Shown: positions 20,107-44,893 of the stretch, piece after piece | Numbering within the stretch: the first letter of the stretch is position 1 | How the letters are laid out: every line of letters begins with the position of its first letter | Assembly (NCBI GenBank): GCA_014879575.1 | Contig: JACSRU010000093.1 | Span: forward strand, 1 to 44,893 | DNA: 44,893 nt | Direction of reading: 5' to 3' | Origin: Chthoniobacterales bacterium | Lineage (GTDB): Bacteria > Verrucomicrobiota > Verrucomicrobiia > Chthoniobacterales > Terrimicrobiaceae | Notes under the pieces: generated by a model | Databases searched by the model: none | Seen by the model: the letters and a program-made list of their open reading frames with translations, nothing else | What the model was told of the DNA's origin: nothing | Program-made: the position numbers and the translations under genes

Positions 20107-20466
20107 TCAGCCAAGTTTGATCTTGTTGTTGCGAACGTAGTTTTTGGCCTGGGTGAGAATGGCCTGTTCCTGACGTTCCGGTTTCATGTTCGGGCTGATG
20201 GTGGCCCGCAGGCTTTTCGCTAAGTCGGCTTGTTCCGGCTTTTCCAGCCACGCCTTGACCTTGGCGGAATACCCTTCCTTCTGCTCCTGATCCCTCATTT
20301 TGCGGAGAAGAAACTTTCGCTCCAACTGCTCGCGAGGGAGGTCCTTGACGTATTGCACCAAGTCGGGTTCCGCCTTCATGAAAGCGTTCAACTTGCTGTC
20401 GATTTCCGGGTTGATTTTGAACTGTTTGGCCAGTTCTTCTTTTTTCTTCGGGGATGCGATTGCCAT
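20107..20466 (-). CDS. Small charged protein, unknown
   Basis: 119 residues, highly charged, with no membrane segment. It begins MAIASPKKKEELAKQFKINPE and contains YVKDLPREQLERKFLLRKMRDQEQKEG, which should form a long helix, and ends NYVRNNKIKLG. No family recognised. It sits in the same direction as the SSB and T4SS genes and is probably part of the same element. Confidence 0.6.
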   Translation of the reverse strand: MAIASPKKKEELAKQFKINPEIDSKLNAFMKAEPDLVQYVKDLPREQLERKFLLRKMRDQEQKEGYSAKVKAWLEKPEQADLAKSLRATISPNMKPERQEQAILTQAKNYVRNNKIKLG

Positions 20467-20534
20467 ATTGGGATGGTGGTTGATGCGCGGCGTTTTGGTT
20501 TCCGTAGCCGTGCGGGTTGACGGGTTTTTGGATT

Positions 20535-20819
20535 TTACGCCTTAGAGGTGGCGGGTTTGAGATTGGGGGTCGTGTCGTCGTCCTCGTCGTCGAACACGCT
20601 GCCGCGCCCGCCGCCGATTTGCTGCATGACGGATTTCAGGAAGCGTTGGGCGACCTTGCGAGGATGCAGCCGGGTCATCTCGGCGTTGATCATGGTCTGC
20701 ACGAGCTGGCTGGTCGGAACACGGATTCCGGCGTTGTTGACGATTTCCGACGCCTCCTTGAAGGTGGCGAAGGTGTCTTCGTCGAGGGTGACAGTGACGT
20801 TGGCGGGTTTGTTATTCAT
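20535..20819 (-). CDS. Probable ribbon-helix-helix DNA-binding protein
   Basis: 94 residues. The segment ANVTVTLDEDTFATFKEASEIV followed by VPTSQLVQTMINAEMTRL (about residues 5-45) has the strand-helix-helix spacing of ribbon-helix-helix proteins, and the C-terminus is acidic (DDEDDDT). ATG at 20819 overlaps the SSB stop by eight bases (ATGAATAA), which decides the start against the long upstream frame. Such proteins serve as accessory factors at transfer origins or as partition/regulatory proteins. Confidence 0.6.
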   Translation of the reverse strand: MNNKPANVTVTLDEDTFATFKEASEIVNNAGIRVPTSQLVQTMINAEMTRLHPRKVAQRFLKSVMQQIGGGRGSVFDDEDDDTTPNLKPATSKA

Positions 20820-21150
20820 GGGCGATGGCGGGTTGCGAGGTTTGGGATTTGGGCGGTGTGATTTCGGAGAAATTTTCCGCCCGGATGGAATAAAGCTCCC
20901 GGTTGGTGTCGGGGTGCTTGTAGAAAGACAACCGGCCTTCCACGACAAAGGCCGTGCCCTTGGGGAGCGCGTCCGCCAGTACGGGGGCAAGCTCCCCCGA
21001 GGCTTTCACGGTGATGGGGATGGCCTCGTTGCGGGCGGCGTTGTGGATGGCGAAAACGGAGGCGAATGTCGCCGTGCCGCTGTCGGTTTTGAGGATGCGG
21101 GGTTCGTCCGCAGAGCGGAGACTGATTTTGATGTGGTTCATGGGATTCAT
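20812..21150 (-). CDS. Single-stranded DNA-binding protein (SSB-like)
   Basis: 112 residues with an OB-fold resembling SSB: MNHIKISLRSADEPRIL, TATFASVFAIHNAAR, ITVKASGELAPVLADAL and KGTAFVVEGRLSFYKHPDTNRELYSIRAENF. The 'kG..v.veGrL....y.d..g..r....i.ae.i' ending is characteristic. The chromosomal SSB acidic tip is missing. The start at 21150 overlaps the lipoprotein stop by ATGA. Conjugative elements often carry their own SSB to protect incoming single strands; here it is co-translated with T4SS genes. Confidence 0.75.
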   Translation of the reverse strand: MNPMNHIKISLRSADEPRILKTDSGTATFASVFAIHNAARNEAIPITVKASGELAPVLADALPKGTAFVVEGRLSFYKHPDTNRELYSIRAENFSEITPPKSQTSQPAIAHE

Positions 21151-21923
21151 TGGGTGAGAAGGGCGAGGTCCTCGCGGCGAGCGAACGGAACGTGGAAAAG
21201 CGCGGTCAGCCTGCGCCGCTCCAGGGCGTCCAGTTCGGCGGCAAATTCATCGTTGAGCCGCATCTGAGAAATCAGGAACGCTTGGCTCTGGTCGGGCGAA
21301 TCGGCGAACAGGACGATTTCGCACGGATCGGAAATTTCTTCCTCCCATTCGGGCAGAGTCGGTTCCACGCTCGAAAAAATATCGTCGTCTTCGACCCTGG
21401 CCGGTTCCGGCTGCTCGGGAGCGGGAGGCGGCTTCGGGGTTTCGTCGATCTGCTTTTTCAGCCGGTCGATTTCCTGTTCAAGCCCCTGCACCTTTCCGGC
21501 CTCCCGCTGTAAGGACTCGATGCGCTTTTTCATGGCGCGGTTCTGTTCCTGCAAGGCTTCGGCATAGGCGCGTTGCTGCGCGTTCATCATTTCGTTGTCG
21601 GCCTTCACGTAATAGGACGGCGAGGGATTGGAGGTTGCCACGGCGGGGCCAAGCGGCAGCGCGTAGGGCGGATCGGGCAAATAATTCCAATCCGGGGATT
21701 GCTCGCGGCGATAGACCGTATGGCGTTCGTGCATTTCCTCCGGGTAATTCGGATCGGTGTAGCGTCCGACCGGATAGGCTTTCACCGTCTCCGGGGTGCG
21801 GACGGCGGCGAGCCGCTTCCCGGAAACATTCGTTCCGGGCACGACGGCCACGGATTGGGCTTCCTTGCGGGTGGCGCAGCCCGCGCACACCGACAGGGCA
21901 AGAATGGGAATGAGGTATTTCAT
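21147..21923 (-). CDS. T4SS-associated lipoprotein-like protein
   Basis: 258 residues. The N-terminus MKYLIPILALSVCAGCATRK is a lipoprotein-type signal, with the second cysteine as the probable lipidated residue. A proline-rich region follows, then a coiled coil (about residues 110-160; ALQEQNRAMKKRIESLQREAG) and an acidic stretch. The C-terminal part (DPCEIVLFADSPDQSQAFLI) is probably globular. It lies between the VirB10-like gene and SSB with ATGA overlaps on both sides, which suggests a VirB7-like or outer-membrane role in the secretion channel. It is far longer than VirB7. Confidence 0.65.
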   Translation of the reverse strand: MKYLIPILALSVCAGCATRKEAQSVAVVPGTNVSGKRLAAVRTPETVKAYPVGRYTDPNYPEEMHERHTVYRREQSPDWNYLPDPPYALPLGPAVATSNPSPSYYVKADNEMMNAQQRAYAEALQEQNRAMKKRIESLQREAGKVQGLEQEIDRLKKQIDETPKPPPAPEQPEPARVEDDDIFSSVEPTLPEWEEEISDPCEIVLFADSPDQSQAFLISQMRLNDEFAAELDALERRRLTALFHVPFARREDLALLTQ

Positions 21924-22915
21924 GGTTTGGGTTGGGTGGAGTTGGCGGCGGAAAGGCCGGTAGTGGCTTTGGCGATGTCCACGGTCTGCGTGACGTAGAG
22001 GTAAAAGAGCGTTCCGGCGCTCACCCGAACGTAATACGGGTCTTTTTGCAGGCCCTCCAAAAGACGCTGGGCGTAGATTTGCCCGCCCGCCTGAATGCCT
22101 GCGGAAATGGCGTCCGTCCACCCTCCGTTCTGAATCACCGTGGCCCCGCCCGTCAGCGGGGAAATCAGGTTGGTCGTTTCCGGGAATGCCCCCGCCCCCG
22201 CCGAAATCATCGAGGCAAGAATCGCCTTGGCCTCGGCGTATTTGTCGGAGGCGATCATATATCCGCGCAAACCGGCGGAGCCGTCCGTTTCACCCCATTG
22301 GTCGCCGCTCGTGCCATCCGGCGCGTAATCGAGGACCGTGCCGGAAAGCGGCAATTCGCGTCCGTCCTGAAACACGAGAACCCACTGGCGTTCGGAGCCG
22401 ATGCGTTCGCGGGCGGCCGATTTTTGCGCGATGCCGTGAACCTCGGTTCCCGCCGGAAGGACGAGCCGCCCATCGTGCCAGACATCCTCCGTAATCAACC
22501 CGATGATCGGCGTCGCAATGTTGGTGGATTCGACGGTATTGACCAATTCACACCGCAAGAGGCGTCCGAAGGGCAAATACAATTCGCTGCGGGATTCCTC
22601 TTTGGTGGCAAAGATCGTTTGCGGGATGGGCGGCGGCGCTTTGGGCGTGGGCGCGGGCCGGGCGGCGGTGCGTTCTACCGGCATGGGAGGCTGCGCCTGA
22701 GAGCGTGCCGGTGCCGTGGGCGGAATGTCCTCGGTGAACGTGTATCCCTTGGCGGCGGTCGCCTGCGCGGGAACGGCCACGTTGAGCGGCTCCTGGGAGC
22801 GGTGGCCTCTCCCGGAAAGGATGAAGGCGAGGATCACCGCAGCGGCCAGCAGAAATAGAATCAGCCTGCCGGTGGGTTTTTGGAAGAATTCTGTCCAGAG
22901 TTTGCGAAGGTTCAT
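21920..22915 (-). CDS. TrbI/VirB10-like type IV secretion protein
   Basis: 331 residues: a short cytoplasmic N-terminus, one membrane helix (RLILFLLAAAVILAFILSG, about residues 16-34), a proline-rich linker (about 70-105), then the periplasmic beta-barrel domain with YLPFGRLLRCELVNTVES, PIIGLITEDVWHDGRLVLPAGTEVHG and WVLVFQDGRELPLSGTVLDY. The 'l..Gt.i...l...i.s......v..v....G.v.lp.Gs...G' pattern is the TrbI/VirB10 signature. It bridges inner and outer membrane in the conjugation channel. ATG at 22915 overlaps the VirB9-like stop by ATGA. Confidence 0.82.
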   Translation of the reverse strand: MNLRKLWTEFFQKPTGRLILFLLAAAVILAFILSGRGHRSQEPLNVAVPAQATAAKGYTFTEDIPPTAPARSQAQPPMPVERTAARPAPTPKAPPPIPQTIFATKEESRSELYLPFGRLLRCELVNTVESTNIATPIIGLITEDVWHDGRLVLPAGTEVHGIAQKSAARERIGSERQWVLVFQDGRELPLSGTVLDYAPDGTSGDQWGETDGSAGLRGYMIASDKYAEAKAILASMISAGAGAFPETTNLISPLTGGATVIQNGGWTDAISAGIQAGGQIYAQRLLEGLQKDPYYVRVSAGTLFYLYVTQTVDIAKATTGLSAANSTQPKP

Positions 22916-23745
22916 TTGAAGTCTCCTGTCAGGGGTTGGGATTCGGCGCGGACAACGAGGACGTTCCATTTGTTATTAGGATCGAGGTTGTTCCGGCCTC
23001 CCTGCCCGTTGCCGGTGATGGCGAAAAATGCCGGGGTCACGGACTTGGGCGGCATGACGCCGGACGCATCGGCCAGGGATTGCGTGTAAATCCGTTCGTC
23101 GAGGCGAACGGCCAAGTCCTGCGGCTTGTAGTAAACGGCGCTATCCGATGTGTTTTCCAGTTCCAGGCGGAAAATCAGGGTGTCGTCCTGCTCGAACCGC
23201 CACACGTCCCGGACCCGCACGGTGAAGTTGTCGTAATAATTCATGCTGCCGGGGGCCGCGTGCATCACTCCGGCCAGCGCGTCGGGATGATTCTTTGTGA
23301 ACAGCGGATACGCCTTGGCTTTATCCATGAGGGAAAGCAGGCGTTCCGGCACGATGGCAACCCGGCTGCCATCCTTCCCCTTCCGGTCGTCCTGATAGAA
23401 CGTGACGTTGTAGAAGGGGTTTTCGGACGCCTTCAAATGCAGGACGTAAGCCTTGCGGTTAAAGATCACCGTCAGATGATCCTCGGCGTCCTTCTTCAGC
23501 GCCCGGATGGTGAAATAGAAATTCCCCGGCGTGAACGAAATCAGGAAATTGGCATTGGGCTGATCCTGAACGGCAATCGACTTGGCGTAGAGCCCCGAGA
23601 CTTCCGACGGAAACATGATGGTTGTGGTTCCCGACTTTTCGGCCACCGAAATGTCATAGATGACAAATTCATCGAGCGGTTTTTGCACGATTGGCCCGGC
23701 GTGTGCCGTGACAACGATCAGCAAGGAGAGGGCGAGGTATTTCAT
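22912..23745 (-). CDS. VirB9/TrbG-like type IV secretion protein
   Basis: 277 residues with a signal peptide (MKYLALSLLIVVTAHA). The following beta-rich domain has GTTTIMFPSEVSGLYAKSI, NFYFTIRALKKDAEDHLTVIF and RKAYVLHLKAS, similar to the VirB9 N-terminal domain, and a C-terminal beta domain (YYDNFTVRVRDVWRFEQDDTLIFRLELEN). It lies between VirB8- and VirB10-like genes, the canonical position. Assignment relies partly on this order. In the family it forms part of the outer-membrane core complex. Confidence 0.65.
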   Translation of the reverse strand: MKYLALSLLIVVTAHAGPIVQKPLDEFVIYDISVAEKSGTTTIMFPSEVSGLYAKSIAVQDQPNANFLISFTPGNFYFTIRALKKDAEDHLTVIFNRKAYVLHLKASENPFYNVTFYQDDRKGKDGSRVAIVPERLLSLMDKAKAYPLFTKNHPDALAGVMHAAPGSMNYYDNFTVRVRDVWRFEQDDTLIFRLELENTSDSAVYYKPQDLAVRLDERIYTQSLADASGVMPPKSVTPAFFAITGNGQGGRNNLDPNNKWNVLVVRAESQPLTGDFK

Positions 23746-24374
23746 AGGGGCTTTTCGGTATAGGTGAAGTCCTGCACAACGAGCGGGAGGCGCCCGTTGC
23801 CCAGGAGGTCGGGATTGCGGATGAACAGAAATTCGATCTGGAATTTGACCGGCTCGCGGAATTCCAGATTCTTGAGCGTGCCGGTGCGAACAAGGTTACC
23901 CTCGGCGCGGACGCTGACGGCCTCGAAGGATTGGCCCGCGCCGTCCTTGATCTTGCGCGTGTTGAGAATGTCGATCTTCGTGACTTCGACTTTTTGATGA
24001 ATCTGCTTCTCCTTGAATTCCGGGTTCTGCGCCTTGTAGAGCGCGGCGGCTTTTTTCCGGGCGGGATCTTCGAGGTAAATCCGCTTCAACAAGTCCGACA
24101 AATCCGGCCCCACGGGATTGCGTTGCAGAAGAGCCAGGCACGCGAGCCGGACATGGTAGGCATGAAGGTTTCCGGCTTCCTCGAAACCGAGCAGGGGCGC
24201 ATAGATGAGCGTCCCGCCCGGATCGAGGATGACCACCTTTTCCTTTTGTTTCATGGCCTGCACGGTGAGATACGGCGATGCCACGGCAAACCCGACGGCG
24301 ATAATGGCAAGTGCCATCCAAAAGCGGGCGGCAATGGCGTTATTGGTGATGGAAGTAACGGCGGATAATTTCAT
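23742..24374 (-). CDS. VirB8/TrbF-like type IV secretion protein
   Basis: 210 residues: a short N-terminus, one membrane helix (FWMALAIIAVGFAVASPYL, about residues 18-37), and a periplasmic domain of mixed alpha/beta structure (AYHVRLACLALLQRNP, then QIHQKVEVTKIDILNTRKIKD and GNLVRTGTLKNLEF). This bitopic plan and the central position match the VirB8 role as inner-membrane assembly factor. The ATG at 24374 lies four bases after the TrbL-like stop. Sequence-level similarity to named families is modest. Confidence 0.58.
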   Translation of the reverse strand: MKLSAVTSITNNAIAARFWMALAIIAVGFAVASPYLTVQAMKQKEKVVILDPGGTLIYAPLLGFEEAGNLHAYHVRLACLALLQRNPVGPDLSDLLKRIYLEDPARKKAAALYKAQNPEFKEKQIHQKVEVTKIDILNTRKIKDGAGQSFEAVSVRAEGNLVRTGTLKNLEFREPVKFQIEFLFIRNPDLLGNGRLPLVVQDFTYTEKPL

Positions 24375-24378
24375 GGGA

Positions 24379-25422
24379 TCAGGTGTTGCGGGTGGCGAGC
24401 GGGGAATCCGAAGGCAAGGATTGGGCTTTTCTGGCGTGGGAATTGAAGGCGGCCTGCGCCGCGTAAGGGGTGGCAATGCTGCCGGGATGGTGGGATACGG
24501 TGCCCCGGTCGTTGTCCACGACGGCGAAGGCATTCGGGGCGGTCTGGTGCGCCACCATTCCCGGATTATCGGGATTGCTGACGGTGCCCGATGAAGCGGG
24601 AGGAACGGGCGGCGGTGGTGGAACCTCCACGGCAGAGGCCGTGGAACCGCCCATCGTTCCGGCAAGGTCATTGGCGATGCGTCCCGCCGCGTTCGCGGCC
24701 CCGGCTGCGGCCTGGGTTCCGGCCAATGCGCCCTGCACGGCGGTGGAACCTCCAAAGGTGGCGACTGCGCCCGCCGCCGTGAGTCCCGCGCCCACGGCCA
24801 GCCCTGCGGCCTGCATGGAGCCTTGCACTCCAGCTTGAAGGGAGGCGGTCGTGCCGCTGACTCCCTTCATCACGGCTCCGGCCACGAACGGCACGCAAAG
24901 ATAAAAGAACACCGTGATAATGGCGGCGAATGCCATGATGAACGGGAAGAGCAGCCAGTTCTGAACGACGATCATGTTTTGCGCCACCTGCACCAGTCCG
25001 CCCGTGGTGATCGGGGCAAAGAGCAAATCGCTGATTGCGACAATCACTATGTCCACGAGACAAATCGCCACATGCCACAGCAGGACGGTCAGCGAAGTGA
25101 CGCAGAACTGGATGCCGAGGGATTGCGTATAGGAGAAGAACAGGAAGCCCAACAGGAGCGGCGAAACCGCGATCAGGCCCGCGATGGCAAAGTTCTGAAA
25201 GAACGTGAGCACCACGAGCATGAAGCGGCCCACGCCCTGAAAGAACATGCCAATGGCGGCGGGAACCACCTTTCCCAAATCCGTCCAGGAGTCGGACGGC
25301 TGGTTTTCGATGCGGGAACGAAGCAATTGAACAAACTTCGCGTCCCGCGCGTTGGTGAATTTGTTGCGCATTTCCACGAACGCCTTCTGGCCGCCCTCCA
25401 TCATATAGATGGAAAAAAACAA
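24379..25422 (-). pseudogene. VirB6/TrbL-like membrane protein, 5' end lost
   Basis: The surviving C-terminal part has about five hydrophobic segments (e.g. VGRFMLVVLTFFQNFAIAGLIAVSPLLLGFLFF, LTVLLWHVAICLVDIVIVAI, MAFAAIITVFFYLCVPFVAG), followed by a low-complexity Gly/Ala tail and ending HARKAQSLPSDSPLATRNT. This is the TrbL/VirB6 layout. The in-frame stop TAG at 25434-25432 lies just before the TTG 'start', and the N-terminal membrane region usual in the family is missing. The serine recombinase gene begins 22 bp away on the other strand, so the gene was probably cut when that element inserted. It is unlikely to work alone. Confidence 0.68.
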
Positions 25423-25444: not shown

Positions 25445-27178
25445 ATGAAGACAAGGCAGGCGCGAAAACGACGCATGAAAGCCTATTCTTATATTCGGTT
25501 CTCCACGCCCCAACAAGCCGAAGGAGACAGCCTGAGGCGGCAACTGGAAATCAGCGAAAAATACGCCGCCAAACACAATCTCGAAATCGACGATTCGCTG
25601 CGAATCACCGACCTTGGGAAATCAGCCTATACCGGGAAGCATCTGTCCGAAGGAGCCCTGGGGGCTTTTTTGAGGGCGGTTGAAGGCGGGAAGGTCGAGG
25701 CCGGAAGTTTCCTGCTTGTCGAATCCCTTGACCGGCTGAGCCGGGCGGCAGTGCCCAAGGCGCTGCGCCTGTTCCTGACCCTGCTGGAACACGGCATCCA
25801 GATTGTGACCCTTGCCGACGAACGGTGTTATTCGGAGGAATCCGCCAGCAAGGACATGACGGAGATGATCATCAGCATCGCCATCATGTCGCGGGCACAT
25901 GAGGAAAGTCAGAGAAAAGCCGAACGACTGGCGGCAGCCTGGGCCGAAAAGCGCCGGAATATCGCGGACGAGAAACTGACCAGCGTCTGCCCCCGGTGGC
26001 TGAAACTCAGTGAAGACCGCAAGAGCTACGAACTGATTCCCGAGAGAGCCAAGATCGTGCGAGAAATCTTTGACCTGACTATGCAAGGTGTGGGGAGAAG
26101 TGCCCTGGCCAAACGTCTCAATGCCCGGAACGAACCCGCCTGGACCAAAGGCAAGCGCCTCAAAGCTGGCTGGCATCATTCCTACATCGCCAAGATTCTC
26201 AGCAACCCCGCCGTCATAGGGCGATACCAATCCCACACCCACGACAAAAACGGGAAAAAGATCCCGGCAGGTGAAGTGATTGTGGATTATTTTCCTGCGG
26301 TCGTTGACGAGGCCTCGTATTACGCTCTGCTGGGACGATACCAGCCCCGCGGCCGATATGGCACTTCCCACCGGATAAACAACCTGTTCACCAACCTGAT
26401 CTTCGATGGCAAAACCGGCGATCCGGTCCGCTATGTGTGCGTAACCGACAAGAGGCGGGGCAAACCGTGGCGCACTCTCATGAGCGATGCCAAGAGGCTC
26501 AATCCCAAGGCAAAGGTCGTGGGGTGGTCCTACCCCCATTTCGAAGCAGCCTTTTTGAAGTTCATCACGGAGCTGGACTGGAAGCAGGTGGCCCAACAGG
26601 AGCAGAACACACTCCTACTTGAAAAACAGCGTGAGGCGATCATTCTTCAGGGCAGACTGGAGGAAATGGAGCAGCGACTGGAAAAGTTCGCGGAAGCCAT
26701 CGCCAGTTCCGAGGAAAAGCCCACTTTCCTGATTAAGAAAATCACCGAGACGGAAACCGAACAGAAAGCCCTTGGGGCTCGGCTTGTGGAGGTGAGCAAG
26801 GCGATTCGCAAATTGGATCGCGACGAACAAAGCCTTCGCGAGGACCAGCACAAAATCCGGCAACTGGTGGCCGAAAATGGAGAACACGAGGATCGGGATG
26901 TGCGCCTGCGGCTTCGGGAGGAAATCCGGCGCAAGGTCAAGAGCATCACGATCCACCCGGAACCAGCGGGAAGCAAAAGGCGTCCGTCTTTCGTGGTGAC
27001 CTTCGTAAATGGCTGCACGACCTGGGTTCGCACCAGTCCCGTGGCGATTGGCACCAAGGCCACCCTCCTCAATCGTGATCCTGACGTCCTCGGGATTCGC
27101 TTCCAGCCACCGGGTGACGCGCCGAGTCCGCTGGATGGGATGGTTACCGACCCCGACGATTGGGGAGACCAGGACTGA
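25445..27178 (+). CDS. Large serine recombinase
   Basis: 577 residues (567 if ATG at 25475 is used, which gives the family-typical start MKAYSYIRFSTPQQ). The resolvase domain (about residues 11-155) contains the nucleophile serine in RFSTPQQAEGDSLRRQ and LLVESLDRLSRAAV. A recombinase domain follows (about 175-300; YELIPERAKIVREIFDLT ... SYIAKILSNPAVIGRY). A long coiled coil spans about 385-485, as in large serine integrases, where it controls integration versus excision. The zinc-ribbon cysteines are not obvious. It probably moves the element that disrupted the TrbL-like gene. Confidence 0.92.
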   Translation: MKTRQARKRRMKAYSYIRFSTPQQAEGDSLRRQLEISEKYAAKHNLEIDDSLRITDLGKSAYTGKHLSEGALGAFLRAVEGGKVEAGSFLLVESLDRLSRAAVPKALRLFLTLLEHGIQIVTLADERCYSEESASKDMTEMIISIAIMSRAHEESQRKAERLAAAWAEKRRNIADEKLTSVCPRWLKLSEDRKSYELIPERAKIVREIFDLTMQGVGRSALAKRLNARNEPAWTKGKRLKAGWHHSYIAKILSNPAVIGRYQSHTHDKNGKKIPAGEVIVDYFPAVVDEASYYALLGRYQPRGRYGTSHRINNLFTNLIFDGKTGDPVRYVCVTDKRRGKPWRTLMSDAKRLNPKAKVVGWSYPHFEAAFLKFITELDWKQVAQQEQNTLLLEKQREAIILQGRLEEMEQRLEKFAEAIASSEEKPTFLIKKITETETEQKALGARLVEVSKAIRKLDRDEQSLREDQHKIRQLVAENGEHEDRDVRLRLREEIRRKVKSITIHPEPAGSKRRPSFVVTFVNGCTTWVRTSPVAIGTKATLLNRDPDVLGIRFQPPGDAPSPLDGMVTDPDDWGDQD

Positions 27179-28011: not shown

Positions 28012-28128
28012 AATTCGAGAGCGCGGCTAGAACAGCCGGTAAGCCTCCGATAAGTCAGTCGTTCAAGCGCGAAGGTGTTCCTGATCCTTCGAGGACGCGA
28101 GCCGACCCACGTCCGGGTCGGCTTTTTT
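28012..28128 (+). ncRNA. Candidate structured small RNA
   Basis: Three hairpins follow one another: CGGCT-agaac-AGCCG (28024-28038), CGAAGG-10 nt-CCTTCG (28070-28091), and the terminator stem GCCGACCC/GGGTCGGC (28101-28122) with six T residues. The nearest upstream gene on this strand ended nearly 200 bases before the first hairpin, so the structures are unlikely to be just its 3' end. A promoter-like pair precedes it. Size would be about 117 nt. No homology to a named RNA is claimed; a leader for the gene at 28160 is an alternative. Confidence 0.4.
28101..28128 (+). terminator. Rho-independent terminator
   Basis: An 8-bp perfect GC-rich stem (GCCGACCC with GGGTCGGC, loop acgtcc) is followed by TTTTTT. 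Confidence 0.85.
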
Positions 28129-28159
28129 GTTGGCTCGGTTAACCGCAGAAAAACCAACT

Positions 28160-28477
28160 ATGAGCGCACAGCCAAACCCTAGCGATAGCCTGCCACTCGG
28201 CGAAACCGATGCAGGGAAACCAGCCACCGGCACCAAACCCGCCGCAAAGCACTCCACCAAACCAACAGCGAAGCCCGAGCTCATCACGAAGGCAAGTCCG
28301 ATCAATCCCCAGTGGACGCAAGAAGCGTTGAACGTAGCCGGATACCCCGACGTCATCGCTGAAGCTCTCGCTCCTGCAGTGAGCAAGGTCATCGCGGATG
28401 AAATCCAACGGAAATTCTCCGCTGCCAAAATCGGTCGTTTTGCAGCAAAGGCTTTCGTCTCGCTTCGCAAAAAATGA
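28160..28477 (+). CDS. Small protein of unknown function near oriT
   Basis: 105 residues. The first 45 are a low-complexity stretch of Lys, Pro, Thr and Ala; the rest (QWTQEALNVAGYPDVIAEALAPAVSKVI...IGRFAAKAFVSLRKK) should be helical with a basic end. No Shine-Dalgarno is evident before the ATG. It lies between a terminator and the transfer-origin region and could be an accessory mobilisation protein, but no family is recognised. Confidence 0.5.
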   Translation: MSAQPNPSDSLPLGETDAGKPATGTKPAAKHSTKPTAKPELITKASPINPQWTQEALNVAGYPDVIAEALAPAVSKVIADEIQRKFSAAKIGRFAAKAFVSLRKK

Positions 28478-28507
28478 ACTCGCCGACAGCTACAGTAACG
28501 CAGGGCA

Positions 28508-28530
28508 GGGGGCGGCAGAACGCCGCCCCC
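28508..28530. other. Hairpin GGGGGCGGC/GCCGCCCCC
   Basis: A 9-bp perfect inverted repeat with loop agaac, not followed by a T run on either strand, so not a typical terminator. It is the first of four hairpins in the non-coding stretch 28478-28937. Confidence 0.7.
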
Positions 28531-28557
28531 TATCCGGGCTCTGAGGAAGAACTATAT

Positions 28558-28604
28558 GCCCAATGGGTGAAAACCGCCATTTTTGCGGTCTTTACTCATT
28601 GGGC
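28558..28604. other. 20-bp imperfect hairpin
   Basis: Arms at 28558-28577 and 28585-28604 pair over 20 bases with two G-T pairs and one A-C mismatch around a 7-base loop (cattttt). It lies about 50 bp from the predicted nick site and may act in transfer or in second-strand priming. Confidence 0.65.
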
Positions 28605-28649
28605 TCAGAAAAAGCGGGACGCTTCAGATCGTATTTCAAAAGAAATACG

Positions 28650-28724
28650 GTATAACACACTAAACCAGATTTTCGGCCATGCCCGGCGTCCCGCCGCCCT
28701 TCGGGGAAAATCTGGTTCAGTGTG
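28650..28724 (-). other. oriT: Predicted origin of transfer (oriT) of MobV type
   Basis: Two 19-nt arms, 28656-28674 and 28706-28724, form an inverted repeat with a single mismatch. On the minus strand the edge of this repeat reads TAGTGTG/TTATAC (28662-28650), identical to the nick region known for pMV158 and its relaxase MobM, with the cut expected between 28656 and 28655. The MobV-type relaxase gene starts 214 bp away. The cut strand would carry the recombinase side first and the relaxase gene last, as is usual. The combination of repeat, exact nick sequence and adjacent matching relaxase makes the call strong without any experiment. Confidence 0.82.
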
Positions 28725-28759
28725 CGTGGGGGCGAGACCCCCTCGGACCCCCAAAATAT

Positions 28760-28783
28760 GCCTCTCCAAGACTCTGGAGAGGC
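28760..28783. other. Hairpin GCCTCTCCA/TGGAGAGGC
   Basis: A 9-bp perfect inverted repeat with loop agactc between the transfer origin and the relaxase start, with no T run. It may regulate the relaxase gene or form a single-strand signal. Confidence 0.65.
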
Positions 28784-28937
28784 GGCCTGACGGCCCCATA
28801 TCGACTCATGTATTTTGTGAAAATCGACACGATTTCGATAAAAAACCGAGACGGTTTTCCATCACTAACGCTTCATTTTCGGAAAAATCCGAAAATGATT
28901 TTCTCAATGCCTTTGCGCCAATAGCGGGCAAAATCCC

Positions 28938-31118
28938 ATGAAGAAATACGTCACCATCCGTGTTCAAAAGCTCCGCGATTGGGGCAACGGTTATGAGAAA
29001 ATGGAACGAAGAATCCGCAGAAAGAAGGGATTCAGTGAGTTCGTCACGAGAAAAATTCGAGGCGTTGAGGCTTCAATTGCTCACGTATTACGCAGAATCA
29101 TTACGCTCAACTCCGATCCAGAGCGCAGGAAAAGAATCACTATTTGTTGCAAAAAATCTGAGTGGAAACCGGTTCAACTGACGGCGAAAACAGCCAAAGA
29201 AATAGGAGCCGACAGTGCAGATTATGTGGTGAAGCTTGCCAAAGAAAGAATCTCCAAACTTGGTATCATCGATTCGAAAAAGGAGAGTTGCAAAGTGGTT
29301 GAGATGATTCTCACAGTCTCTCCGGAGTGGTTGCGCGATGGGGATGAGGAAAATCCAATTAATCCCGAAAAAGAAGCTGCATTCGTGAAATGCGCATTCA
29401 ATTTTCTGAGAGAAACGTACAAAGACAATTGTCTTTTTGCATGTGAACACCCCGACGAATTGAACACCCACGTTCACGCATATATTCTCCCTGCTGTTCT
29501 CAAAGTTCGGAAAAATGCGGGCAGGCCAAGAAAAAGGTCCATCGTTGTTCCGAAATCCAAACCTGTCGAAATCTGGGGGCTGAATTCAAAATCAATGTTC
29601 ACTCCGGACCATCGAATACAGGATCCATCGAAGGAAGGTGACTCAGCCGTTATTCGCTTGGCGCACTCAGGCACATGTTCACAGCTTCAACGGGATTTTG
29701 CACTCTACTGCCAGCAACATGGACTCGACGTAGAGCGCGGAATTGTGGGAAGCAGGGCTAAATACCAGGAAGTCTCCAAATACACACGCTTACTCCGCCA
29801 TGCTGCCATGCAGGAGGATGAGCTTGAAGAAATCATCGATATTGATCAACTGCGCACAGTCGCGCTGCAGAATTATCTCAAGGCAAAAGACCATGACCGG
29901 ATTGCATATGAGTTGAAGTTGCTACAAGAACAGGTGCTAGCGGAACAAAGACCCTTGCTGAAGGAACTTAACCAGTCTGCACTGAAGGTTATAAAGTTGC
30001 AGCATGATAACGATCAGCTAACCATTCAAATTGCGGCCAAAGCTCGTGCCGTTCCCGTCGGCGAATTGATTGAAAAACTTACAGGAGTTGAATCAAGGCC
30101 GGGAGCAAATCCGGGGAAATGTCTTTACGTCCTTCACTCCGGAATGCAGTTGGAAGTCGATGTGGCGACAAATAAATTTAAAAATCTGACTCCGGAAATT
30201 CCAGGACAGGGAAATATGTCGTCGAAGTCAGCAGGAAGGGGAGGAATCGACGCAGCGATATTTTTAACTGGCTGCAGCCCTGAGGCTGCACAAATCCTCA
30301 TTGTCGACCTGTTTTCAATTGATACTGCGGTGGCAACTATTTCCGAAGCTCTTCATTCAGCACCTAACACGCCTGAGCGGAAAATGCTTTCCGAGCATGC
30401 AATATCGGTTGCAAGCGAAGTCAGAAAACCCGACCCATCGAAGTGGCCGACCCTTCGCAATTACCTCGTCGGAACACTCGGATTGACCGAAAACATAATT
30501 GACAAGTTAAAACAGGACGGCTGGATACGTGCAAATAGGTATGGCCATTTGGTTGCAGAACGAAAAATTATCGATTCCAATGGAAAAATCCGGCCGTCAG
30601 GAAATTTCGTGCAGGATGTCACCCAGCCCATTACTGGCTATTATGCCGAGAACGGAATAGGATGCACAACAATTTCCGAGGCGAATGGGACGGAACCAAT
30701 TGTCATTGTTGATGATCCTCTCGAAGCTCTCTCCCTAGAGGCTCATTTTTCGAAATCGAATATGTCCAGAACCGTCTTCGCTATCGGGCGAAAACGCAAA
30801 CCCAAAACCGAAGAATTCCTTCGAATGCTTGGGAAAAAAACAAAAATATATTTCACAGAAATTCCAAGCGAAATTGGCAGAAAATTCGCGGAATGGGTGA
30901 GAAGGATTCTTCCGACCGCAAAAGAAATCGCACCGCCCAACGATCGACTTTCCTGGAGAGAATACCTCAGTGGCCTGAGCGACCGAAAGCCAGAGCACAC
31001 ACGAAAACTCCCTGTTGTCAATGAGCCTGCATTGGAGAACGAACGGGGCAAAAAAGCAGATGGAGCGCCAAAATGTCCCAGCATAAAAGAAATTGCGCCA
31101 GAAGACACCCAATCGTAA
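28938..31118 (+). CDS. MobV-type relaxase fused to DUF3991/TOPRIM-like domains
   Basis: 726 residues. The N-terminal relaxase region (about 1-290) has the MobV motifs in order: IRVQKLRDWGNGYEKMERRIRR near the start, VVEMILTVSPEWL around residue 120, and CEHPDELNTHVHAYILP around 167 (H-x-D-E-x3-H-x-H, metal-binding histidines). It is followed by LQRDFALYCQQHGLDVERGI. A helical linker spans about 290-390. Around residues 435-575 come GRGGIDAAIFL and PSKWPTLRNYLVGTLGLTENIIDKLKQDGWI, matching DUF3991, and then EPIVIVDDPLEALSLEAHF (about 585), a TOPRIM-like strand. It should nick at the oriT at 28650 and pilot the strand. Confidence 0.82.
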   Translation: MKKYVTIRVQKLRDWGNGYEKMERRIRRKKGFSEFVTRKIRGVEASIAHVLRRIITLNSDPERRKRITICCKKSEWKPVQLTAKTAKEIGADSADYVVKLAKERISKLGIIDSKKESCKVVEMILTVSPEWLRDGDEENPINPEKEAAFVKCAFNFLRETYKDNCLFACEHPDELNTHVHAYILPAVLKVRKNAGRPRKRSIVVPKSKPVEIWGLNSKSMFTPDHRIQDPSKEGDSAVIRLAHSGTCSQLQRDFALYCQQHGLDVERGIVGSRAKYQEVSKYTRLLRHAAMQEDELEEIIDIDQLRTVALQNYLKAKDHDRIAYELKLLQEQVLAEQRPLLKELNQSALKVIKLQHDNDQLTIQIAAKARAVPVGELIEKLTGVESRPGANPGKCLYVLHSGMQLEVDVATNKFKNLTPEIPGQGNMSSKSAGRGGIDAAIFLTGCSPEAAQILIVDLFSIDTAVATISEALHSAPNTPERKMLSEHAISVASEVRKPDPSKWPTLRNYLVGTLGLTENIIDKLKQDGWIRANRYGHLVAERKIIDSNGKIRPSGNFVQDVTQPITGYYAENGIGCTTISEANGTEPIVIVDDPLEALSLEAHFSKSNMSRTVFAIGRKRKPKTEEFLRMLGKKTKIYFTEIPSEIGRKFAEWVRRILPTAKEIAPPNDRLSWREYLSGLSDRKPEHTRKLPVVNEPALENERGKKADGAPKCPSIKEIAPEDTQS

Positions 31119-31146: not shown

Positions 31147-31455
31147 CTATTTCGAGGTTTTCCGGATGCGAGACCGCGGTCTTTTCCCAAGTTGCAACAG
31201 GGTAGTTTTGCCCATCAGGGCAGTCAAATCTGCCCGAAGCACACGCAGGATCAGCATGAGTTCGCAATCGGAGATGATGCGTCGTCCGGCTTCGAGGTGG
31301 GCATACGCTGATTCTGAAATTGCCCATCCTCTCGCTCCAAGCCGAGCGACCATGTCACGGAGGCCTATTTTCTTGACATGGCGCAACTCGCGGAGCCTCT
31401 CTCCAAAAATATTCTTTTTTCCTCCTGATTCTCCCCCTGAGATCCTTGACGACAC
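31147..31455 (-). CDS. Xre-family helix-turn-helix regulator
   Basis: 102 residues. FGERLRELRHVKKIGLRDMVARL...WAISESAYAHLEAGRRIISDCELMLILRVLRADLTALMG (about residues 17-81) is a standard HTH_3/Xre fold with the recognition helix in ISESAYAHLEAGRR. The only good start is GTG at 31455. It converges with the relaxase gene (28 bp) and is transcribed away from the exported-protein operon at 31668, whose control is a plausible role. Confidence 0.8.
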   Translation of the reverse strand: MSSRISGGESGGKKNIFGERLRELRHVKKIGLRDMVARLGARGWAISESAYAHLEAGRRIISDCELMLILRVLRADLTALMGKTTLLQLGKRPRSRIRKTSK

Positions 31456-32510: not shown

Positions 32511-33053
32511 ATGAAACTTCGTTTCCTTGTCCTGAGTGCGTTCTTAGGCGCTGTTTTGACGCTTCCTGTCTTTGGAGAGGATTATTATTCAAAAATTAAT
32601 CCAACTTGGCACGCCCTGATTGGCAAATGCGATTACACGCTCGCCGTGAACTCAATCGCCTCTGTGCTGCTGCAACAATATGTCCTCCAAGAAGACGACA
32701 AGCAGTTCGATGTCGTAGAACTCAACATCGAGACTGTTGCAGGGAGCAACACTAGAATATTCTATTCAAAAGAAAAAGGCCCGCAGGAAACCTCAAAATC
32801 CAGCGCCCCGGTAGAAGTTGGCGGTCTTAAGCTTTCTGTCGAGGAAATACAAAAGCAAGCGAAGGCAATGGCTGAATCGGGAAAGATTCCCGGTGAACCA
32901 AGTTCCACTGACCAGAAACAACCAAAAGACATTCTGCTTAAGAAAGGATCTGCAGGGACCTACGCAAAGCTCCTTGAACTTCAAGCCTCCTCCGAGGCTG
33001 AAGTTCGCAATCTCCACCAGTCGCTTCTCGAAAAATGGCTCCATCAAGATTGA
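32511..33053 (+). CDS. Exported protein of unknown function
   Basis: 180 residues with signal peptide MKLRFLVLSAFLGAVLTLPVFG. The mature protein starts EDYYSKINPTWHALIGKCDYTLAVNSIASVLLQQY and ends in a helical, charged part (YAKLLELQASSEAEVRNLHQSLLEKWLHQD) after a flexible Lys/Pro-rich linker. It starts two bases after the previous stop and overlaps the next gene by 19 bases, so it is co-translated. No family recognised; there is no counterpart visible in the second cassette at 41907. Confidence 0.6.
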   Translation: MKLRFLVLSAFLGAVLTLPVFGEDYYSKINPTWHALIGKCDYTLAVNSIASVLLQQYVLQEDDKQFDVVELNIETVAGSNTRIFYSKEKGPQETSKSSAPVEVGGLKLSVEEIQKQAKAMAESGKIPGEPSSTDQKQPKDILLKKGSAGTYAKLLELQASSEAEVRNLHQSLLEKWLHQD

Positions 33054-34882
33054 TCCTAATTACTTTGTTGTCAGGCACCGTTGTTTTTGGTCAACAGGCA
33101 GTGCCGCAAACCTCGGCTGCTCCGGCAGCGAGTGTCCCTGAAGGGACAACGCAGAAAGGCGTTGCCAATCCCGCATCAAAAGTTACCGGTGTTGATGAGG
33201 TTCCATTGCTTGATCCGGGATCGGAGACGATTTTTTGGGACGGAAAGACCTGGAGCATGGGGGATCAACGTGGACTTCAGGCGAGGTGGGAAAAGTTTCT
33301 TAACGAGCCGGAGGATGAAGTCGAGACTTATAGAGCATACAACGATCAGCTGACGGAAATCATCAATGTGCTTTCGGCAAGCTCCAACGCTCAAAGTTCC
33401 AGCGAAGCGACCGCACGGGCTTTTGCATTATTGCAGCAGGCCTCTCAATACCGTCCTGATGCGGGCCTTTGCCAGACTATTTCCAATCAGGTTGTGGCTG
33501 CTTGGCGGGGCTCAAAAAACGGAGCCGCCCTTGCCGCAGCAAACCGGGCATTGGAGAACGAGCGCAAGCGCGTCGAATGGAACAAACAAGTCACACTTCA
33601 GGCCAATTCGCTGGCGCAGTTTGGCAGGAATAGTTCGGATGGCTTGGCTGGCGAAAACAAAAAGGCCAAGCAGTTTCTCGAATCCACCGGATATGATAAA
33701 CGCCTGACTGAGATTGAAACGCAGCTCAAAGGCAATGACCTCAAAGGAGAACTGGTTATTGCCAAGAGAAAACTCGAATTTCAGGCGCTTATTGTTCAAT
33801 TGTTTTTCCAGCGACGGTTTCAGCACGCCATCATTGGCGTTCGCTTTTATAATTCTGTTTATGGCGACGGGGACAATGAATTGCAGTTGGGAGAAGATAC
33901 CAAGAATCTCTTTTCTCGAACTGCGGGAATGTCTCCTTCTTTATTCACGCTGGAATCCTTGGCACGTGAAACCATGGGTGATGTGCAAAAGGGCACGGAT
34001 GCTGCCATTTTCCTAATTCGACACAATGAAATGGCATCAGGCGCGAGACGCCTGATGGAATCATTCCTGCCGGGAGAATATGCGCCCGCAATTCGCACCT
34101 TGGAACGTGACACCAAACGGGAGGTGCTGTCATATGAGCGGAACCGCCTCAAACTTCTGGCAGCGGTTGAGACCAAAGACTACACGCTCATAGGTGAATT
34201 GCTTCCAGAAATTGCAAAAACAGCCAAGGATTTTGACGATACTAAATATCGTGGTCTCATCGAAACTGCAAAAGCTCAGGCCAATTTCCACATTGCCAAA
34301 GCGCAGGATGCTGCCGTGAATGGTGAACGGGCCAATGCGCAGGCGGAACTGCAGGCGGCCGGAGAAATATGGCCGCGCAATCCGGCTCTGGAAGAAGCAA
34401 GCAAGGCGTTGCTGTCTATTTCTTCTGGGCAAGGTAAGGCTCTCAAGGAACTCGATGATTTGCTCAAACAGCGAAACGACCGGGCTATTTATGATCAAAA
34501 GGAAAAGTTTATATCGGCTGTTGCATTTGCTCCTGACAGACAGGAGCCCACGAAGGCAGCGATTGAACGAATCGCTAAGGTAGAGGCCGTACTGGCGATG
34601 GCGCAAGAGATTGCCCGCACAGGCAATGCCGCTCTTGCATGGGAAAAGCTGGACAAGCTTCATCAGAAGTCCAAGGACGCGAAGGTATCGGAGCAGTTAG
34701 CCGATCTGTCCGCGAAGGCTTCAGAATACGTTTCAGCCTTGCGGGCGGCCGAGGCCGCAGCAACACAACAAAATATTGGCTCGGCTTTGGCACTTTACTT
34801 GCGAGCACAGGCTCTTGCCCCAGGTGCCGAAGTCCCGGTAGAGCAACTCGCGCAATTGAGCAAGCAGGCATTGGAGAAATAG
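33035..34882 (+). CDS. Secreted helical-repeat protein (cassette A, long component)
   Basis: 615 residues with signal peptide MAPSRLILITLLSGTVVFGQ, a flexible linker rich in Ala and Pro, then almost entirely helical sequence. Repeats of 30-40 residues resembling TPR units occur in the C-terminal half (KAQDAAVNGERANAQAELQAAGEIWPRNPALEEASKALL; LRAAEAAATQQNIGSALALYLRAQALAPGAEVPVEQLAQL). The protein is paralogous to 42352-44307: both share, in order, the 'KTAKDFDDTK / KTATDFDTTK', 'AAGEIWPRNPALEEA / AAAEAWPGNPDLQDK' and 'SAKASEYVSALRAAEA / SGRSAEFVSAINKARD' blocks. It is likely a periplasmic scaffold or adaptor; no enzyme motif is visible. Confidence 0.62.
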   Translation: MAPSRLILITLLSGTVVFGQQAVPQTSAAPAASVPEGTTQKGVANPASKVTGVDEVPLLDPGSETIFWDGKTWSMGDQRGLQARWEKFLNEPEDEVETYRAYNDQLTEIINVLSASSNAQSSSEATARAFALLQQASQYRPDAGLCQTISNQVVAAWRGSKNGAALAAANRALENERKRVEWNKQVTLQANSLAQFGRNSSDGLAGENKKAKQFLESTGYDKRLTEIETQLKGNDLKGELVIAKRKLEFQALIVQLFFQRRFQHAIIGVRFYNSVYGDGDNELQLGEDTKNLFSRTAGMSPSLFTLESLARETMGDVQKGTDAAIFLIRHNEMASGARRLMESFLPGEYAPAIRTLERDTKREVLSYERNRLKLLAAVETKDYTLIGELLPEIAKTAKDFDDTKYRGLIETAKAQANFHIAKAQDAAVNGERANAQAELQAAGEIWPRNPALEEASKALLSISSGQGKALKELDDLLKQRNDRAIYDQKEKFISAVAFAPDRQEPTKAAIERIAKVEAVLAMAQEIARTGNAALAWEKLDKLHQKSKDAKVSEQLADLSAKASEYVSALRAAEAAATQQNIGSALALYLRAQALAPGAEVPVEQLAQLSKQALEK

Positions 34883-34883
34883 T

Positions 34884-35270
34884 ATGTCACGTCGTTCAAA
34901 AAAGACCTCGAAAAGTTGGATTCTGCTCCTGGCGGGAGCCCTGTTTACCTCTGTCGCAGCCTATTTTGTGCTTGCGCATCTCGGAGCCCCCTACCGCACA
35001 CTGCAACCGCTGCCGGTCGCTGCATATGTGCAAAACTCGCTCTCTCTGCAAGGGAACACGTATCGACTGAGCGGACAGATTGAGAACCAAATGCTTTGGG
35101 ATAAGGGTTTCGGTCGTGTTGTGTCCATATTGACCAGCGAGGGGCTTGTGGCTGTTGTTTTCCCAAATACTGTGCGGGCAGACAATCTTCAGCGGGGGCA
35201 AAAGATTATTGCCCGTGCAGAAGTGGGCGATAAGGGAATCCTAAAAATAGAAGAATTCTCGAAAGAATAA
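34884..35270 (+). CDS. Membrane-anchored OB-fold-like protein (cassette A, short component)
   Basis: 128 residues: basic start MSRRSKKTSK, one membrane helix (SWILLLAGALFTSVAAYFVLA, about residues 11-31), then PYRTLQPLPVAAYVQ and a beta-rich domain (TYRLSGQIENQ ... AVVFPNTVRADNLQRGQKIIARAEVGDKGILKIEEFSKE). The strand pattern and the 'l..Gq.i.a...V...G.l.' end resemble small OB-folds. Nearly every block aligns with 41907-42377 (P[YL]RTLE/Q..PV..Y, the strand with 'ieN', and the 'kGq.....eV..gG.l' end). GGAGAAA supports the start. It follows the long component by one base. Confidence 0.62.
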   Translation: MSRRSKKTSKSWILLLAGALFTSVAAYFVLAHLGAPYRTLQPLPVAAYVQNSLSLQGNTYRLSGQIENQMLWDKGFGRVVSILTSEGLVAVVFPNTVRADNLQRGQKIIARAEVGDKGILKIEEFSKE

Positions 35271-35318: not shown

Positions 35319-35348
35319 GGGCGGCAGACAATAATCTGCCGCCCTTTT
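35319..35348 (+). terminator. Rho-independent terminator after cassette A
   Basis: Perfect 10-bp stem GGGCGGCAGA/TCTGCCGCCC (plus A-T pairs outside), loop caataa, followed by TTTT. It lies between the OB-fold-like gene and the AAA+ gene, whose ATG is only ten bases beyond it. Confidence 0.88.
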
Positions 35349-35358
35349 GTCATGTGCC

Positions 35359-36267
35359 ATGCACAGTCAGACAGATCCACTTATTTATAGTTACCAACGA
35401 CAGGTGTTCCACGAGTTGCATGAAACTCTCGCTGACTTTCGCTCCAAAGGCTGGGACGAATTGCCAATCCGTCCAAGGTGGCATCGCCTGGTCATCGGCG
35501 CGACCGGAACAGGAAAATCCCACCTTGCCAGGCTTGTTTCCAAGTCGGCCAATTTGCCTTTTTTGAGTCTCTCGGTAACGAGCTGGATTCTCATGGGGTG
35601 CAGCGACAGAGCCGGCGAACCAACATGGCAAACTATTCGATCATTTCTTGCGTCCAACAAGCGTGGCGTCATTTTTTTGGATGAAATAGACAAACTCGAT
35701 TCCAACCTAGCTTGGTTTCGATCTCTTAAGGTTGAAATATATGATCTTTTGGACGGGCGTATCCCGGAGGGTCTCCGCCATGAGGAAATCACCATGGATG
35801 ACTATGTTGTGGAGGAAAAATACGCAGGCATTTTCCTAACAGCTAGATTGCGAACGCAGTTCTGGATAGTCGCGGGTGGTGCCTTTCAAGATTTATGGGA
35901 TATGGGCGGAAATAGCATTGGTTTTGGCACACAGACAGCGCCGATTCCAACTTTTTCGATTTTGTCCCGACAACTGGACACGGAACTGGTGAATCGGTTT
36001 GGCGAAATCTTGGTTCTTCCGATGCCGCAGAGATCCGATTACGAGTGCATGCTTCAATCTGCCTGCGATATCCTCCCGCCACCAATGCGCCAGAATTTCC
36101 TTTCTGTCGGCACAAACATGCTCGACGAGGCAACAATCCAGCGCAAAGGTGCCCGCTTCGTTGAGGAAGTGCTCGCCAAAACAATCCGATCTTTGAGAAA
36201 AAGGCACTGCAAAAATCAGCCCATGCCTCTGGAGGAAATGTCCCGGCAGCGGTGCATCAGTCCGTGA
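35359..36267 (+). CDS. AAA+ ATPase (ClpX/Hsp100-like core)
   Basis: 302 residues. RLVIGATGTGKSHLARLVS (about residues 42-60) is Walker A, KRGVIFLDEIDKLDSN (about 98-113) is Walker B with sensor region, and LVNRFGEILVLPMPQ (about 207-221) supplies the arginine that in this group contacts ATP of the neighbouring subunit. An insertion around residues 120-190 separates Walker B from that arginine. The C-terminal helical lid is short and no partner-binding domain is seen. There is no Shine-Dalgarno at ATG 35359; TTG at 35347 is an alternative. It follows cassette A but beyond a terminator. Its role there (remodelling or secretion) is inference. Confidence 0.75.
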   Translation: MHSQTDPLIYSYQRQVFHELHETLADFRSKGWDELPIRPRWHRLVIGATGTGKSHLARLVSKSANLPFLSLSVTSWILMGCSDRAGEPTWQTIRSFLASNKRGVIFLDEIDKLDSNLAWFRSLKVEIYDLLDGRIPEGLRHEEITMDDYVVEEKYAGIFLTARLRTQFWIVAGGAFQDLWDMGGNSIGFGTQTAPIPTFSILSRQLDTELVNRFGEILVLPMPQRSDYECMLQSACDILPPPMRQNFLSVGTNMLDEATIQRKGARFVEEVLAKTIRSLRKRHCKNQPMPLEEMSRQRCISP

Positions 36268-41682: not shown

Positions 41683-41906
41683 CTTCTCCGATGCAGGCCA
41701 GCCAATCCAGGGAGACCGCACGCCGCAAAAATCCCGAGATCCGTCTCTTCCCTTCACACTTCCCTTCAACAATTGCCAGCCGCCGGGCCTGCCTTTAGCG
41801 TTCCATACCGTGACGGGATTTTCCCGGAATGAAAATCCACTTTTGAGCGTTCGTTCGTGTGCTCTTTTCTTGAAGTTGCCCCGAATCCCATCCAGTATTT
41901 CCCGCA

Positions 41907-42377
41907 ATGCAGGCACACCAACCAAATGACCCCGGAGAAAATCCGATCATATCTCCATTTTCAGATGCGGAGAGCCCTGTTTTACAGAAGCGGCGCAAGA
42001 GCCATGTTGCGCTGTGGGTTTCTCTCGGCGTTGTTCTCTGTCTGGTTTTGGCAGTCGGAGGTTTTTTCCTCACCCGCTATCTGAACGATCCGCTTCGCAC
42101 ACTGGAGGCATTCCCCGTCGGGAAATATCTGGAGAGCTACAAGGCGCTGGCCGGTTCGAAATTCCGGGGCACACTCCGGGTGGAAAATGATCTTGGCTGG
42201 AAAGAGGGCTCAGGCCGCCTCATGGTTTTTTCACTCCGAGACAATCCCCATCCCATCGTGGTGATGATTCCGCCGAGTCTCGCACAGATTTATTTCACCA
42301 AGGGTCAGACTTACGAGGGAGAACTTGAAGTCAAAGAAGGAGGATTGATTTATGCGAATTCCATTCGGAAAAACTAG
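41907..42377 (+). CDS. Membrane-anchored OB-fold-like protein (cassette B, short component)
   Basis: 156 residues: a hydrophilic N-terminus of about 30 residues, one membrane helix (HVALWVSLGVVLCLVLAVGGFFLT, about residues 33-56), then DPLRTLEAFPVGKYLES and a beta-rich domain ending KGQTYEGELEVKEGGLIYANSI. It is the paralogue of 34884-35270 with the same topology and ordered sequence blocks; its N-terminal part is longer. It is divergent from the helicase-associated-domain gene and overlaps the next gene by 26 bases. Confidence 0.62.
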   Translation: MQAHQPNDPGENPIISPFSDAESPVLQKRRKSHVALWVSLGVVLCLVLAVGGFFLTRYLNDPLRTLEAFPVGKYLESYKALAGSKFRGTLRVENDLGWKEGSGRLMVFSLRDNPHPIVVMIPPSLAQIYFTKGQTYEGELEVKEGGLIYANSIRKN

Positions 42378-44307: not shown

Positions 44308-44327
44308 CTGGGAATGAGTCTGACCAC

Positions 44328-44893
44328 ATGGCCAGCGCGATCAGTGTTCACAATCTTTCGGTGACTGTCAGGGAGAAGCGTCAAATCAAGACGCTTCTCG
44401 CCAATGTCAATTTTTGGATTGAGAGAGGGCGGTTTGTCGCGGTCATTGGGGCATCGGGCTGCGGGAAGAGCACCCTGATCAAATCAATGGCGGGATTGAT
44501 TCAGCCATCAGCCGGCCAAATTCTTTTTGCGGGACAGTCCGTGCAAGATTTGAATGACCATCTCCCGCTCGCCGTTGGCTACCTCCCTCAGTTTGGGGCG
44601 TTTCATGAGAAACTGACCGTGGGGGAAAATCTTTCCACGGCATCTGCATTGCGTCTCCCGCGAAAAGTCACAGGGGAACGGCGGCAGGCATGGATGCACC
44701 ACATTACAGAATTGGCCCGTATTGATCCCCTGCTTCCCCAGGAATACCGGACCCTTTCCGGTGGACAAATGCGTCGGATGGCCCTTGCAGAGGAATTGAT
44801 TGGAGATCCCGCATTCCTCCTGCTCGACGAGTTGACCAGTGGGCTCGATCCGTTTTCCGAACTGGAAATGATGGCATGGTTGCGGGATCTGGC
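44328..44893 (+). CDS. ABC transporter ATP-binding protein (partial, runs off the window)
   Basis: The first 188 residues are present and the gene is cut by the window end. Walker A is VIGASGCGKSTLI (about residues 40-52), Q-loop YLPQFGAF (about 85-92), signature YRTLSGGQMRRMALAEELI (about 144-162), Walker B FLLLDELTSGLD (about 168-179). The order and spacing are canonical, and the signature/Walker B sequence resembles ATPases of ABCG/ABC-2-type exporters. No membrane domain has begun by the edge. It starts 20 bases after cassette B's long component, so it is probably in the same operon. Confidence 0.9.
   Translation, partial: MASAISVHNLSVTVREKRQIKTLLANVNFWIERGRFVAVIGASGCGKSTLIKSMAGLIQPSAGQILFAGQSVQDLNDHLPLAVGYLPQFGAFHEKLTVGENLSTASALRLPRKVTGERRQAWMHHITELARIDPLLPQEYRTLSGGQMRRMALAEELIGDPAFLLLDELTSGLDPFSELEMMAWLRDL

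Follow-up and report, generated by a model that had tools for sequence, protein, structure and literature searches.

A predicted oriT with a pMV158-type nick sequence and a branched single-strand fold beside a MOBV relaxase in a probable IME of a Chthoniobacterales bacterium

The segment at 28630–28724 of the analysed stretch of DNA (44,893 nt, hereafter the window) is very probably the oriT of an IME, at which the MOBV relaxase encoded downstream at 28938–31118 would act. This assignment is based on a nick sequence that is unique in the genome, on the similarity of the relaxase to MobM, and on a branched fold whose pairing is kept in a relative from another family of the same order.

Nick sequence and relaxase

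The sequence TAGTGTGTTATAC (TAGTGTG/TTATAC) was found without mismatch on the minus strand at 28662–28650, and the cut is expected, as predicted from this motif, between 28656 and 28655 of that strand. A pMV158-type nick had been noticed at this place in a sequence-only reading, and the present analysis confirmed that it is exact and that the 3.6 Mb genome contains no second exact copy. In the window, it is the sole site with two or fewer mismatches (0.04 expected from dinucleotide shuffles), and, from the base composition, the probability of meeting the full motif by chance on one or the other strand within 400 bp is about 6e-6. The relaxase ATG (28938) is separated by 282 bp from the predicted nick and by 213 bp from the edge of the repeat arm. 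The arms described earlier, 19 nt each at 28656–28674 and 28706–28724 with one mismatch, were also recovered, the mismatch being a G·T wobble on the nick strand. The claim that both arms carry near-copies of the cut site holds only in part: the far arm ends in CAGTGTG on the plus strand (28718–28724), but CGTGGG follows instead of TTATAC, and thus a single nick site is expected.

The 726-residue relaxase (28938–31118, plus strand) is the only Mob_Pre (MOBV) relaxase of the genome. Its match to PF01076 (E = 1.8e-11) exceeded the curated cut-off (44.7 versus 25.5 bits), in agreement with the MobV-like relaxase that had been seen to adjoin the nick. The score against the NCBIfam MobV equivalog was 52 of 100 bits, below the cut-off, indicating that the protein is a divergent MobV member. 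MobM was matched by sequence (phmmer E = 4e-6; E = 4e-30 with a profile of nine relatives) and by fold. The predicted structure, which is of moderate quality overall (pLDDT 65) and good in the nuclease core, resembled MobM bound to pMV158 oriT DNA with a target-normalized TM of 0.74–0.77 for the four top-ranking entries. The conserved His, Asp, and Glu residues are shared as well: H49, R52, H171, D173, E174, and H178 are invariant in 35 relatives and aligned with MobM (the motif I His and HxDE...H). The C-terminal part appears to be a degenerate Toprim/primase-like domain. Its modelled fold matched T7 primase, which agrees with the presence of DUF3991/Toprim in the relatives of the relaxase.

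The oriT of pMV158, recognized by MobM (MOBV1), has the identical cut core over 13 nt, and its nick likewise lies at the 3′ base of a hairpin, IR3 (PMC5863519). The earlier suggestion that the window relaxase keeps the pMV158 recognition is therefore upheld for the cut core, but not for its surroundings. In pMV158, three short overlapping repeats (IR1–IR3) are present and IR2 spans the nick, whereas the window has a branched 19-bp stem in which the IR2 palindrome is missing and the IR3-like pairing is branched. The polarity is also reversed: the predicted nick of the window is 282 bp from the relaxase gene and on its non-coding strand, whereas that of pYSI8, the plasmid standing in for pMV158 in our comparisons, is on the coding strand at 43 bp. 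In addition, the window relaxase is fused to the primase-like domain, unlike that of pMV158. Because relatives carry TAGTGAG, the exact match is one instance of the family consensus AGTGNG/(T)TA and not a sign of a particular tie to pMV158.

Branched fold and its relatives

As single-stranded DNA, the minus strand is predicted to form a cloverleaf at 28656–28724, in which the 19-bp stem (28706–28724 with 28656–28674) closes a junction of three mini-hairpins (28697–28705, 28684–28696, and 28675–28683). The predicted energy of the nick strand was −32.4 kcal/mol (z = −7.7), equalled by none of 200 shuffles. The predicted nick is at the 3′ end of the stem and TTATAC is unpaired in this fold. A second hairpin of 8 bp (28630–28649, minus strand) directly follows TTATAC, with two compensatory changes compared to G051, a genome of the same order and another family. 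No palindrome spanning the nick was found in the window or in G051.

The sequence-only reading had pointed to other copies of the element as the place where the repeat and the nick motif might be missing; in G051, the motif, hairpin, strand, and spacing are all kept. The G051 relaxase is 46–47% identical to that of the window, and TAGTGAG/TTATAC lies at the corresponding position, on the same side and strand, with the predicted nick again at exactly 282 nt upstream of the start of the relaxase gene. Of the 37–38 pairs in each fold, 36 are common to both, and seven pairs are altered on both sides with the pairing kept. One such two-sided change is in the nick-side arm, where GTGTG in the window is GTGAG in G051, matched by CACAC to CTCAC in the opposite arm. 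We also considered an ORF across the oriT (28474–28941) as the cause of the conservation, but this was rejected on account of indels of one or two bases relative to G051 together with the compensatory changes.

G482, a genome of the same class with a more distant relaxase, has the arrangement CTCAC, hairpin, hairpin, A-GTGAG/TATAC on the non-coding strand. MOBV relaxases are rare in this phylum, judged to be Verrucomicrobiota from its gene content; they were found in 7 of 388 sampled genomes. Single-query scans of genome contigs and viral contigs revealed no further close relatives, and the close copies known are the window and G051 only. Apart from these, two loci (L026 and L027) in two genomes of the same phylum encode short MOBV relaxases that are near-identical to each other and are accompanied by a coding-strand oriT resembling that of pMV158 (TAGTGGG/TTAT), suggesting a recent, separate transfer.

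Carrier element, host ICE, and alternative explanations

The large serine recombinase is encoded at the end of the element (25445–27178, plus strand; PF00239 and PF07508) and is 37% identical to its G051 homolog. Before the oriT lies a small ORF of 116 residues (28127–28477, plus strand), 52% identical to the ORF in the same place in G051, which is a candidate accessory protein. Sequence comparison further identified an HTH regulator (31147–31455, minus strand) and an AAA ATPase (35347–36267, plus strand) in both. Only these genes and the relaxase are common to the window and the G051 contig region; T4SS genes are not. The virB6 gene of the host ICE (24379–25422, minus strand) lacks its N-terminal part, removed by the insertion, whereas relatives (84–86% identity) are intact. 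Residues 1–66 are encoded at the end of the ICE segment on another contig, C142 (34520–34717), and residues 66 onward from 25401 downward in the window. The junction between the element and virB6 (25393–25412, about 25402/25403) was placed where homology to three ICE copies ends, at 25402–25404, and by the inverted-repeat ends; read inward, CATCTATAT and ATATAGATG form a perfect inverted repeat. When aligned with a paralogous ICE module, the window reaches position 8313 with its far end and C142 reaches 8315 with its own, so the two contigs most likely abut. If so, the IME is about 33.4 kb long (19.5 kb in the window and 13.9 kb on C142), a join and ends that depend on a draft assembly in 178 contigs. 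By its gene content, the element has the make-up of a serine-recombinase IME, that is, an integrase at the end, its own relaxase and predicted oriT, no T4SS of its own, and defined ends.

The positions 41868–44893 of the window are 75% identical to C142 5281–8313 (TPR protein and ABC transporter start). The IME and the ICE carry cargo modules that are paralogous by sequence comparison. Two gene pairs within the IME (33035–35270 and 41907–44307), each consisting of a TPR-like protein of 615–651 residues and a small membrane-anchored protein, also look paralogous. In G051, a type I restriction-modification-like gene set lies downstream of the relaxase core (L009, 1319–12848) and may be cargo of the G051 element.

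The host ICE has a tyrosine integrase adjoining tRNA-Val. It also encodes a 940-residue VirB4-like protein, for which the VirB4 profiles PF03135 and PF19044 gave no match. A second copy of the ICE in the genome (C37) has an intact virB6 and is a candidate helper. This ICE family (virB6 identity 70–86%) occurs over several families of the order (L131–L134; G012, G051, G075, G080, and G095), with at least five copies in G012 alone. In the second ICE copy, a free-standing Toprim/DUF3991-like protein (L131, 853–1842, minus strand) resembles the C-terminus of the relaxase.

A serine recombinase and a MobV relaxase occur together in Tn4451 (PMC5704250), and streptococcal serine-integrase IMEs disrupt conserved ICE genes (PMC5357655). 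The window element resembles Tn4451 and the streptococcal IMEs in Tn5252-type ICEs in having a large serine recombinase at its end, its own relaxase, and no T4SS, and it resembles the latter in that the insertion breaks a conserved conjugation gene of the ICE (PMC5357655). Unlike them, it resides in a Gram-negative host of another phylum, targets virB6, is about 33 kb long, and carries a relaxase–primase fusion with an AAA ATPase and an HTH protein in its core.

Three other explanations of the site were weighed. The conserved structure might act as RNA, as a regulatory element or as the terminator of an upstream transcript, with the nick motif being incidental; compensatory changes alone cannot separate DNA from RNA, and both strands of the oriT region fold. 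However, no Rfam family matched the structure, no T run follows the 28656–28724 stem, and MOBV relaxases of other phyla are also preceded by the AGTGNG core and an unpaired TTATAC, so that a role as RNA is highly improbable. The site might instead be a rolling-circle or single-strand replication origin of the excised circle, with the relaxase–primase serving maintenance more than transfer. MOBV relaxases belong, as replication initiators do, to the HUH enzymes, branched hairpins are found at origins of single-strand replication, and the relaxase has a primase-like domain. Nevertheless, the motif is the cut site of MobM, the nuclease matches MobM, and the acidic metal-binding Toprim residues are not conserved in the lineage of the window relaxase; we consider such an origin very unlikely as the main role, and the site could serve both replication and transfer.

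The remaining explanation concerns the carrier, namely that the relaxase and oriT belong to the neighbouring ICE as one conjugative element with two recombinases and no nested IME. The T4SS genes (20107–25422) and the tyrosine integrase do adjoin directly, but virB6 is cut exactly at the boundary with its other part on C142, and the ICE has its own relaxase of another family (PF03432) beside VirD4. Moreover, the recombinase–oriT–relaxase core of G051 is present without T4SS genes, its ICE being on a different contig. A single conjugative element is thus very unlikely.

With 28630–28724 taken as the oriT of the IME, we propose the following course of transfer. The large serine recombinase would excise the element from virB6, and supercoiling would then extrude the minus-strand cloverleaf. 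The MobM-like domain would bind the cloverleaf and cut between G28656 and T28655, probably by means of H49, to judge from MobM. Headed by T28655, the cut strand would pass into the recipient via the T4SS of a resident ICE, here presumably the copy with intact virB6. Because transfer would proceed from T28655 towards lower coordinates, the putative accessory gene and the recombinase would reach the recipient first and the relaxase last; the order foreseen in the sequence-only reading is thus supported by the polarity of the predicted nick strand. The regenerated hairpin would direct the rejoining of the strand.

Strand polarity and fold across MOBV elements

In pMV158, nicking takes place on the coding strand of the relaxase gene, and it is this strand that is transferred (PMC5863519). 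The nick motif was found on the coding strand in pYSI8, Planococcus, Klebsiella, Vibrio, Psychrobacter, and G207, and on the non-coding strand in the window, G051, G482, Zymomonas, and cyanobacterial plasmids. Eighty loci with Toprim-fused MOBV relaxases were collected, and 77 were scored for an AGTGNG/TA motif upstream: the motif was on the non-coding strand only in 32, on the coding strand only in two, on both in one, and on neither in 42. A covariance model built from 22 cyanobacterial sites gave 35 matches in sources that had not been used to train it, and 32 of these lay on the non-coding strand. The predicted nick polarity clusters on the relaxase tree, with 3 changes versus 8.5 after shuffling, a contrast that near-copies inflate on a tree whose deep branches are poorly resolved. 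A strict rule that a Toprim fusion entails a non-coding nick was rejected, as G323 (fusion shown), L070, and L084 look coding.

The cyanobacterial sites have a stem with three arms in which 97% of cells are paired, and 76 cells are double-changed versus 22 in shuffles, far above every slid control. The Toprim-fused MOBV plasmids of cyanobacteria and Zymomonas resemble the window in the nick motif on the non-coding strand, and the oriTs of the cyanobacterial plasmids also in a stem bearing three mini-hairpins, whose pairing is maintained by covariation. They differ from it in hairpin sequences, arm order, and spacing (most often 115–131 nt), and their nick lies about 8–10 nt beyond the stem, inside a small palindrome. 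The cyanobacterial model failed to recognize the window oriT and hence gave no support to homology of the cloverleafs; the likeness is one of form. In the literature searched, which excluded most subscription journals and preprints, we found no description of a cloverleaf oriT and no report joining MobV relaxases with Toprim or DUF3991.

We tentatively propose that Toprim-fused MOBV elements of at least two phyla have a distinct oriT, a single-stranded cloverleaf opposite the relaxase strand, so that the relaxase–primase would enter last, and that the enzyme would recognize it more by its branched shape than by the sequence of the hairpin; we hold this to be possible, somewhat short of probable. 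Few oriTs have been mapped outside Proteobacteria and Firmicutes, and the predicted window oriT joins the 13-nt cut core of a Gram-positive plasmid with a branched DNA fold and reversed polarity. Fold and strand together would provide a testable rule for locating the oriTs of Toprim-fused MOBV elements. The putative IME lies within an ICE secretion gene, an arrangement that is also known from streptococci and is here extended to a distant phylum, and the genome contains an ICE that might act as its helper.
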